A DNA stretch of 35,641 bases from Pseudomonadota bacterium (GTDB lineage Bacteria; Pseudomonadota; Gammaproteobacteria; CALCKW01). Position 1 is the stretch's first letter. Each line of letters opens with the position of its first letter. The notes under the pieces are model-generated. The model did no database searches and had not been told where the DNA came from. It was given only the letters and a program-made list of their open reading frames with translations. The translations under genes and the position numbers were made by a program. Below are positions 32,297 to 35,641 of this stretch, piece by piece. The DNA is taken from NCBI GenBank assembly GCA_039196715.1, contig JBCCUP010000047.1, positions 1 to 35,641 of the forward strand, written 5' to 3'.

Positions 32297-32404
32297 GCGC
32301 GCCAGCACCCGGCCTTCGCCACCAGCCGGCCTGCCGGGTGTCACGGGGCAACCGAGACCTGAGCCGCCTGGCAGCCGCGGGCACCGGATTTGCACCCACA
32401 GGGA

Positions 32405-33985
32405 ATGCCCCCGTCCACGCCGCCCCCGTCGCATTCGAGTCCGGCTCAGTCGCCAACGCCGCAGGACTGGCAGGTGCTGCGGACGCTCTGCTGGTTCCGG
32501 CTGCTGCTCTGCGTCGCCCTGTTTTACGCGTTGCCGCAGCCCGACCTGTTCACCCTGTTCAGCACCCCATCGGGCACCCCGTTCCTTGCGATCAACTCGC
32601 TCTATATCGTGATCAGCCTGGTGCTGCCGGTGCTGCTGTGGCGCCGGTGGCCGGGTTTCTCGACACAGGTCAGCGCGCACGTGTTCAGCGACCTGCTGGT
32701 GATCGGGCTGCTGGTGCTTTCGGTCGAAGGTCTGACCCAGACGGTCGCCAGCCTGCTCTGCATCCCGGTTGCCGAAGCCGTGTTGTTGCGGCGCAGTCGG
32801 CTGCTCTACCCGGTCGCGGGTGTCGCAACCGCACTGGTCGTGACAACCGACGTCGTGCACGGTCAGCTGCTGACCAAATACCCTGCCACGTTTGCGCTGT
32901 CCCTGGCCTTCGTTGCCGTGGCCTACCTCGGCACCGTGCACCTGCGTCGCATCGGCCAGGCGGACGACGCCCTGCGCGCCCAGCACCGCGAACTGTCGTC
33001 GATGACCCACCTTGCCGAGGAAATACTCGACGCCTCGACACAGGGCATGGTGGTGCTCGACAACCGGGATCGCGTGCGCTTCGTCAACGCGACCGCGATG
33101 ATGTTGCTCGAACGCCACCACGTCGACCTGCCCATCGAGCTCACGCAGTTCGACAGCCGTTTGCACGACGCCATCAGCACCCGTGCGGATGTCGTGAACG
33201 ACGAGAGCCGATCGCTGAGCCTGCGACTGCACACCAGCCCGCTGCGCGATGGCAACACCCTGGTGGCGTTGATGGACATGCGCGAGATCGAGGCCATGAC
33301 CGAGCAAAGCCGCCTGGCCTCACTCGGCCGTTGGAGCGCCAGTGTGGCGCACGAGATACGCAACCCGTTGAGCGCGATATCGCAAGCCGTGCAGCTGCTG
33401 CGGGACGACGACTGCGCGCTGCCGCGCGCGCAGATCGTCGAGATCATGGAGCGCAACACCCTGCGCATCGATGCGGTGGTGCGCGACGTGCTGACGCTCA
33501 GCCGCCCGGTCGCGGCGGACCGCTACGCGCATTTCGACACCTGGGTCGCTGAGTTCCATTCCGAGTTTCAGGCGACGCACCCCGAGGCAGCGTTGACGGT
33601 GACGGGGCAGTTCGATGCACCCGCGCTGATCGCGGGCGACGAAAAACGCCTTTTTCACATCGTGAACAACCTGTGCGAAAACGCGCTGATACACGGTGCC
33701 GACAACACCGTGCACCTGGCGCTGTCGAGCGCGACCGACGCCGTGGGCGTGATGCACACGCTCACGGTGTCCAACCGGGGAGCGCCGCTGGATCCCGCAC
33801 AAACGTCACGCATGTTCGAGCCGTTCTTCACCACCGCGGTGGGCGGCAGTGGCCTTGGCCTGTATGTGGTGCGCGAATTGTGTGACCAACTGGGCTTCTC
33901 GCTGGCCTACGACTACCGCGACGGGGTGCACCACCTGAGCGTGCTCGCCCCGGACGCCCAACACGCCACAGGCATCGCCGCATGA
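32405..33985 (+). CDS. pilS: Type IV pilus sensor histidine kinase PilS
   Basis: The product is 526 residues. About six membrane segments (about 25-180) form the sensor input, a PAS-like domain (about 200-295) follows, then HisKA with the phosphorylated histidine near 316 in SVAHEIRNPLSAISQAV. The HATPase part has N box NNLCENALIHG (about 421-431) and G box GGSGLGLYVV (about 480-489). It lies between bamD and the regulator gene in the same order as Pseudomonas bamD-pilS-pilR. The start is uncertain: the ATG at 32405 has AGGGA directly against it, and a TTG five codons upstream (32390) is the alternative. It overlaps the next gene by four bases (ATGA). Confidence 0.93.
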   Translation: MPPSTPPPSHSSPAQSPTPQDWQVLRTLCWFRLLLCVALFYALPQPDLFTLFSTPSGTPFLAINSLYIVISLVLPVLLWRRWPGFSTQVSAHVFSDLLVIGLLVLSVEGLTQTVASLLCIPVAEAVLLRRSRLLYPVAGVATALVVTTDVVHGQLLTKYPATFALSLAFVAVAYLGTVHLRRIGQADDALRAQHRELSSMTHLAEEILDASTQGMVVLDNRDRVRFVNATAMMLLERHHVDLPIELTQFDSRLHDAISTRADVVNDESRSLSLRLHTSPLRDGNTLVALMDMREIEAMTEQSRLASLGRWSASVAHEIRNPLSAISQAVQLLRDDDCALPRAQIVEIMERNTLRIDAVVRDVLTLSRPVAADRYAHFDTWVAEFHSEFQATHPEAALTVTGQFDAPALIAGDEKRLFHIVNNLCENALIHGADNTVHLALSSATDAVGVMHTLTVSNRGAPLDPAQTSRMFEPFFTTAVGGSGLGLYVVRELCDQLGFSLAYDYRDGVHHLSVLAPDAQHATGIAA

Positions 33986-34548
33986 GCAAGACCCTGTTGA
34001 TCCTCGAAGACGAGCCGGACATCCGCGAACTGCTGGCCATCGCGCTGGAGAGCGCGGAGCTGCACTGTGAGCTGGCGAGTCACCTGTCAGACGCCAAGTC
34101 GCTGGTTACCCGCTTGAAACCCGATTTCATCCTGACCGACATCCGGCTGCCCGACGGCAGCGGGCTCGATCTGTTGAGTTTTGCCCGCGAACACGCTCCG
34201 AACACCCCGTGTGCCGTGTTGACCGCCTACGGTGACATGGAGAGCGCTGTCACAGCCTTGCGTGCGGGCGCGGTGGACTACCTCACCAAACCGGTGGACA
34301 TGCGCGCACTGAAGCGCCTGTTGAAAGAGACGTTGGCCGAGTCGCCACGCACTCCCGAGCGCCCTGCACCCGCTGCGGCGCCGACACCGCCATGCGACGC
34401 CGCCAACGGCGATGTGCTGACCGAGGACAAACTGCCCTTGCTCGAAGCACTGGAAGCCACTCGCTGGAACAAACGCGCCGCGGCCGAACGGCTCGGCCTG
34501 AGCTACCGCCAGTTCCGCTACCGTCTGCAGAAGCACAACATTCAGTGA
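33982..34548 (+). CDS. pilR: PilR-like response regulator lacking the AAA+ domain
   Basis: The product is only 188 residues; PilR is normally about 445. The receiver domain (1-120) is intact with E9/D10, phosphoacceptor D53 (LTDIRLPDGSG), T81 and K103. A Pro/Ala-rich linker (about 121-145) leads straight to a Fis-type helix-turn-helix (about 150-188, RWNKRAAAERLGLSYRQFRYRL), which closely resembles the PilR/NtrC C-terminus. The central ATPase with the Walker A and GAFTGA motifs is absent, and no frameshift or leftover sequence is seen. The layout is like RegA/PrrA regulators. It is coupled to pilS and followed by the pilin gene, so PilS is the likely partner. It could bind the pilA upstream sites but could not itself activate sigma-54. 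Confidence 0.9.
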   Translation: MSKTLLILEDEPDIRELLAIALESAELHCELASHLSDAKSLVTRLKPDFILTDIRLPDGSGLDLLSFAREHAPNTPCAVLTAYGDMESAVTALRAGAVDYLTKPVDMRALKRLLKETLAESPRTPERPAPAAAPTPPCDAANGDVLTEDKLPLLEALEATRWNKRAAAERLGLSYRQFRYRLQKHNIQ

Positions 34549-34718: not shown

Positions 34719-34734
34719 TGGCACATGGGCTGCT
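34719..34734 (+). promoter_or_regulatory. Sigma-54 promoter of pilA
   Basis: TGGCACATGGGCTGCT: a perfect TGGCAC -24 element and TGC at -12, with the invariant GG and GC at the right spacing. Transcription would start near 34745, about 80 bases before the pilin ATG. Confidence 0.82.
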
Positions 34735-34826
34735 GATTCAGAGGCAATCGGATTCAAAGAATTTCATTTGGACCGATAACCTGAGTGTGCAACAGCACTC
34801 AACCCCAACTATCAGGAATCGTGAAC

Positions 34827-35300
34827 ATGAAACTCAACAAAGGTTTTACCCTTATCGAACTGATGATCGTCATCGCGATCATCGGCATCCTCGCCGCCAT
34901 CGCTGTGCCCCAGTACGCACAGTACACGCGCCGTGCGGCTTACTCTGAGATCAAGCTCGCCTCAACACCGATCAAGTCGGCTGTTGAGGTCTGCTACCAG
35001 CGTCACGGTAGTGCCGCGCCTGGCTTCTGTAACGCTGCGGTCGCAGCAGCTGCACAGCCGGCCCAGATCACTGAGACCATGGAAACTCGTGCTGCTACAG
35101 GTGCTCGTGTCGGTGCAGTCGCGCTGGACAACGCTGGTGGCAACCCGCAGATCACTGTCACGCCCGCAGGCGGTGAAGGCATCGTGGCCGGTGACGTGTT
35201 CATCCTGACCGGTCAAGCCACCGTTGATGCGGCCACGGGTGATGCGTTCATCACCAACTGGGTTGAGAGCGGCCAGGGCTGCGACCAAGGCTACTGCTAA
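34827..35300 (+). CDS. pilA: Type IV major pilin (PilA-like)
   Basis: The product is 157 residues. A short 6-residue leader (MKLNKG) ends at the prepilin peptidase site; the mature protein begins [20 protein letters not shown] with Glu at +5, the type IVa hallmark. The hydrophobic helix is followed by an alpha-beta head. Four cysteines are at 56, 68, 152 and 157 (the last residue), allowing one loop near the helix end and a short C-terminal loop. AGGA lies 9 bases before the ATG. It has its own sigma-54 promoter and is followed by a strong terminator, so it is probably made at a high level as the main subunit. Confidence 0.95.
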
Positions 35301-35350
35301 GTCGCAAGAGCGTGCTTGGGAACCCGTGTTCTCATAGCGCTCCTTTCAAG

Positions 35351-35377
35351 AGCCGGAGGGACTACCCTCCGGCTTTT
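35351..35377 (+). terminator. Intrinsic terminator of pilA
   Basis: A perfect 10-bp stem (AGCCGGAGGG at 35351-35360 with 35365-35374), ACTA loop and four T. It starts 51 bases after the pilA stop and 53 bases before the next pilin start. Confidence 0.92.
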
Positions 35378-35403
35378 CTCTCATTCAACGGCTCCGTACC
35401 TCT

Positions 35404-35641
35404 ATGAGACAGCTCAAAGAAAGGCCAGGAAGGGTTCAAACGGGATTTACGCTGATTGAACTGATGATTGTGATTGCCATCATTGGCATCCTTGCTGCCG
35501 TTGCGACACCGATGTATCTCACACATCTGCGGCAGTCAATCTACGTCGAAGTTACCCAGGGTGCGAAGTTGGCAAAGTCGGCGCTGGAGACCTGCGTGTA
35601 TTTCGAAAACGACTTGGACCGGTGTGTCACAACGGTCCAAG
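35404..35641 (+). CDS. Second type IV pilin (partial)
   Basis: The frame runs off the right edge after 79 codons. A 14-residue leader (MRQLKERPGRVQTG) is followed by the mature start [20 protein letters not shown] with Glu +5. The head begins with cysteines 9 residues apart (CVYFENDLDRC), matching in position the 11-residue spacing in the first pilin. The ribosome site before the ATG is poor, and only 26 bases separate it from the upstream terminator stem and T run, so expression may depend on read-through. It may be a minor or alternative pilin subunit. Confidence 0.9.
   Translation, partial: MRQLKERPGRVQTGFTLIELMIVIAIIGILAAVATPMYLTHLRQSIYVEVTQGAKLAKSALETCVYFENDLDRCVTTVQ

Follow-up and report, generated by a model that had tools for sequence, protein, structure and literature searches.

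The regulator gene behind pilS in the window (the whole stretch of 35,641 nucleotides that was analysed) encodes a short PilR from which the entire AAA+ domain has been lost. This form is conserved in an uncultured marine genus of the Granulosicoccaceae, and PilS, the PilR-type operator, the sigma-54 promoter of the pilin gene pilA and RpoN have all been retained. We tentatively favour, at somewhat short of an even chance, a reading in which the short PilR would be a subunit that binds the enhancer under PilS control, and an FlrC- or FleQ-like activator (the likeliest partners) or an NtrC-like one would provide the ATPase in trans. Feature positions are given in the table.

Features of the pilS–pilR–pilA locus (positions in the window)
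Feature	Position	Strand	Remarks
pilS	32390..33985	+	sensor kinase; Pfam 6TM_PilS, HisKA (SVAHEIRNPLS), HATPase_c
short pilR without AAA+ domain, 188 aa	33982..34548	+	
receiver domain, residues 1-119	33982..34338	+	Pfam PF00072; D10, D53, T81, K103 kept
linker, residues 120-148	34339..34425	+	position of the AAA+ domain in full-length PilRs (alignment)
Fis-type HTH of the PilR kind, residues 149-188	34426..34545	+	PF02954; aligned with PilR C-termini
PilR-type operator (UAS) TTGTCACATGTTGACAA	34606..34622	.	predicted; TTGTCA-N5-TGACAA, perfect match
sigma-54 (-24/-12) promoter TGGCACATGGGCTGC of pilA	34719..34733	+	predicted; shuffle test
pilA, major type IV pilin, 157 aa	34827..35300	+	

The original prediction had placed this gene in the pilR position with an ATGA overlap and had described a complete receiver and a PilR-type Fis helix-turn-helix (HTH) with no ATPase between them, all of which was borne out. 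The open reading frame shares 4 nt (ATGA) with pilS, whose product is complete, with the 6TM domain, H-box and ATPase domain detected using Pfam. In the short PilR, Pfam recognised Response_reg at residues 6–114 (E = 1e-25) and HTH_8/Fis at residues 153–185 (E = 7e-11) but no AAA+ domain between them, and the Walker motifs and the GSFTGA loop were absent. When aligned with full-length PilRs, the gap opened where the receiver ends and closed at the first DNA-binding helix, and thus took in all of the AAA+ domain. The AlphaFold model likewise comprised two folded domains and a disordered linker (residues 120–146, pLDDT <50), and the solved structures nearest to the HTH included chains of the NtrC family and NifA. 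A short linker does replace the ATPase, as predicted, but it spans ~29 residues rather than ~27 and is Pro/Ala-rich only in this species. PilR orthologues are recognised by a position directly downstream of a pilS with the 6TM_PilS sensor and by a pilA gene whose sigma-54 promoter is preceded by a PilR-type operator, and we found both here; enhancer-binding proteins are recognised by an AAA+ domain with GAFTGA (GSFTGA in most PilRs), which the short PilR lacks. Judged by sequence, it is a PilR by descent and by locus, without the enhancer-binding ATPase.

Two other congeneric species, G001 (62% identity; also overlapping pilS by 4 nt) and G002 (55% identity), have the same short gene behind pilS. 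Identity to the window's protein was high in the receiver (77/119 and 65/118 in the two congeneric genomes) and the HTH (31/40 and 26/40) but just 5/22 and 8/23 in the linker, and residues D10, D53, T81 and K103 were invariant across the three species. Moreover, PilS was less well conserved than the short PilR itself, at 54% identity in G001 and 33% in G002. Since the receiver and HTH are kept while the linker is not, and PilR is better kept than PilS, the pattern is, on sequence grounds, what selection on a functioning protein of two domains would leave. The clean frame and stable whole-domain loss claimed for the window were thus confirmed in both congeners. An assembly error or recent frameshift was ruled out, as the same deletion occurred in three species and three separate assemblies. 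All genomes considered are incomplete assemblies, those with the short pilR being 96, 93 and 79% complete (G001 being the last). A fourth species, G003, possesses type IV pilus genes, and no match to pilS or pilR was obtained in its assembly, in which the contig stops inside bamD, the gene preceding pilS; the absence may therefore be an assembly gap, which is indistinguishable from loss. In G001 and G002 the contig breaks off shortly after pilR, and that of the window ends inside a second pilin gene, probably due to repeats or strain variation at pilA. Of its order, this genus alone was represented among the genomes compared.

Of 369 gammaproteobacterial genomes, 219 contained a PilR-like match with an E-value of at most 1e-30, and matches extended over all 188 positions in the three congeners only. 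The other matches listed covered mainly the receiver and nearly all lay inside frames of 400–520 residues; two of the few shorter frames were full-length genes cut by contig ends. An ordinary PilR measures 440–520 residues. Nearly all full-length PilRs examined carried GSFTGA or GAFTGA (mostly GSFTGA), and most of their genes adjoined an upstream histidine kinase gene. Relatives encoding a full-length PilR with this loop at the same locus would have spoken against a stable loss, and PilRs with GSFTGA were seen only outside the genus. In a tree of receiver and HTH, the short PilRs formed one clade (support 98/88) that joined the PilRs (96/95) apart from six other activators of the same genome, the outgroup branches being long and the short clade falling either within the sampled PilRs or next to them. 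A search of open-access papers yielded no account of a truncated PilR.

The downstream pilin promoter had been described as sigma-54-type, and the -24/-12 element TGGCACATGGGCTGC agrees with this: its score was reached in 6 of 2000 dinucleotide shuffles of the intergenic region (1 of 2000 for its G002 counterpart, TGGCATGGCCTCTGC). A chance match was ruled out for this site, which was by far the best of the intergenic region and rare in shuffles. The operator TTGTCACATGTTGACAA, 106 bp further upstream, is an exact TTGTCA-N5-TGACAA, which occurs nowhere else in the 4.95-Mb assembly, and its score was reached in none of 2000 dinucleotide shuffles (3 of 2000 for G002). The operator counterpart in G002, TTGTCAACAGTTGCCAA, matches at 11 of 12 positions, distances are nearly equal, and the gene order is certain in that species, as an overlap of 141 identical bases joins the pilR contig to the pilA contig. 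In an ungapped comparison of the window and G002 intergenic regions, which have few other blocks in common, the operator was the second-best conserved block. The G001 sequence ends in TTGTCAAC at the place corresponding to the control region, and the pilA side of that locus was looked for and not found. Among 44 loci with full-length PilR, pilR was followed by a strong -24/-12 element in 17; an operator match of at least 10/12 was present upstream of this element in 8 of the 17 (11/12 or 12/12 in four), and in none of the 17 when the sequences were reversed as a control. TTGTCA-N5-TGACAA is thus, by sequence comparison, a general PilR operator. The strongest point of the analysis is that, as far as can be read from these predicted sites, the PilR motor was lost yet the operator and sigma-54 promoter were kept, even between genomes in which PilS is only 33% identical.

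Other features were observed around pilA. The best conserved block of the pilR–pilA intergenic region (34773–34799, CCGATAACNNGAGTGTGCNANAGCNCT), common to the window and G002, lies in the presumed pilA leader and could be a leader hairpin (z of -2.4 in the window, unsupported in G002), a further operator or a sigma-70 -10 element. Two type IV pilin genes stand in tandem at 34827–35641, the second running off the contig end, and the genome holds 14 pilin-like matches in total.

Transcription from a -24/-12 promoter is established to depend on an AAA+ activator (PMC7175178); since the short PilR has no such domain, the ATPase would have to come from the FleQ-, FlrC- or NtrC-like activator if the promoter is used. 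The search for RpoN was positive in the window's genome, G002 and G003, and negative in the 79% complete assembly of G001. The window's genome encodes eight AAA+ proteins of sigma-54-activator type, of which just three keep the sigma-54 loop: a FleQ-like (GAFTGA) and an FlrC-like protein (GAYTGA), both on contig C37, and an NtrC-like protein (GAFTGA) on contig C39. The same three loop-keeping activators are present in G002. By eye, the HTH of the FlrC-like protein (AAAEALGISPRTLRYKL) was the most PilR-like of the three. In G001, two NtrC-like frames (L050 on contig C94 and L053 on C145) look chimeric near the Walker B region, a hint of one more GAFTGA activator in that genome or of contamination.

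Under the reading that we favour, PilS would phosphorylate the short PilR at D53, and the phosphorylated protein would bind the TTGTCA-N5-TGACAA enhancer ~106 bp upstream of the pilA promoter. Alone, it cannot open a sigma-54 promoter; it may instead act as an enhancer-bound tether or gate for the ATPase of a FleQ-, FlrC- or NtrC-like partner, FlrC or FleQ being the most plausible, with both the choice of partner and the direction of the effect presumed. A more specific form, a two-part activator in which the short PilR senses and binds the enhancer and borrows the ATPase of a flagellar activator, is possible though on the doubtful side; if it held, pilin transcription would answer to the flagellar programme as well as to PilS. 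As a precedent for the favoured reading, ATPase-dead NtrC bound to DNA can reportedly recruit NtrC that is unable to bind DNA, according to work from the Kustu laboratory. A second precedent comes from Pseudomonas, in which PilSR and FleSR affect each other's targets (PMC6058289). Assembly of NtrC-type activators normally relies on the AAA+ domain, and the loss of this usual assembly surface counts against an ATPase in trans. The GAFTGA loop has been lost in the remaining five of the eight activators (L004–L008; contigs C19, C69, C34 and C10), a state shared with relatives of the genus. The lineage thus seems inclined to leave sigma-54 control, which also counts against the trans-ATPase model.

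That two species retain both the operator and the sigma-54 promoter speaks against a mere change to sigma-70 and in favour of either an ATPase in trans or antagonism. In the latter case, the short PilR would block another sigma-54 activator at the enhancer, such that PilS lowers or times pilA expression. This would require no contact with an ATPase, accounts for the retained operator and promoter, and fits a DNA-binding protein without a motor, by default a passive occupant of its site. We regard it as rather unlikely, as the other activator would have to reach the same enhancer, the window's genome encodes no protein combining a PilR-type HTH with GSFTGA, and the PilS–PilR circuit would have to flip its sign.

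Activation of pilA from a sigma-70 promoter in the manner of RegA, with the -24/-12 element a relic, would agree with the layout of receiver and Fis HTH, which is that of RegA/PrrA/ActR, and with the -10-like GATAAC in the conserved leader block at 34773–34799. The best precedent is pathogenic Neisseria, in which pilE moved to sigma-70 and a dead sigma-54 promoter was retained (PMC6528607, PMC6755734). However, rpoN is defective in those bacteria and intact here, the operator and -24/-12 element persist in two species with few other common intergenic blocks, the operator precedes the candidate sigma-70 start by ~170 bp, a long distance for class I or II activation, and the short PilR, at 92.9, stays well under the 250 required for ActR/PrrA. 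In view of these points, we consider such a switch unlikely. Finally, a complete PilR or split-off PilR ATPase could be encoded in the missing few percent of the genomes (96, 93 and 79% complete) and be modulated by the short PilR, but this is very improbable: neither a second full-length PilR, for which a search had been proposed, nor a detached PilR-type ATPase was found in the window's own assembly, absence by chance from three assemblies would be needed, and no GSFTGA protein was seen in that genome or G001, the one in G002 being NtrC-like.

Among known enhancer-binding proteins, some have no receiver or no DNA-binding domain, the AAA+ domain being their constant part (reviewed in PMC7175178). 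A short PilR with a conserved enhancer and -24/-12 promoter would represent either a natural split of enhancer binding and ATPase between proteins or a sigma-54 activator turning into a plain switch or antagonist, and either outcome is directly testable with a pilA reporter.

Compared to PilR of the PilS–PilR systems of Pseudomonas and most Gammaproteobacteria, the short PilR has the same linkage to pilS, a receiver with ~40–50% identity, the same kind of HTH, the TTGTCA-N5-TGACAA operator and a downstream sigma-54 pilA promoter, but lacks the AAA+ domain with its Walker motifs and GSFTGA loop. With RegA/PrrA/ActR it shares a receiver, a short linker and a Fis-type HTH within ~180–190 residues, whereas its HTH is of the PilR kind and its gene follows pilS and is found next to a sigma-54 promoter. 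Membership of that family was rejected, as the match to NCBIfam NF033791 (92.9 bits; cut-off 250 bits) covered residues 3–131, the receiver, only. The Npa/PilR remnants of pathogenic Neisseria are similar in that a PilR orthologue decays while the pilin gene keeps its -24/-12 element (PMC6528607, PMC6755734); there, however, the ATPase and DNA-binding regions were lost or the gene was fused, and rpoN is defective, whereas the species described here keeps the DNA-binding domain, the operator and rpoN. NtrC-family proteins without GAFTGA (NtrX-like and others) likewise descend from activators and have lost the sigma-54-activating loop, but they keep a degenerate AAA+ domain, which in the short PilR has been excised.
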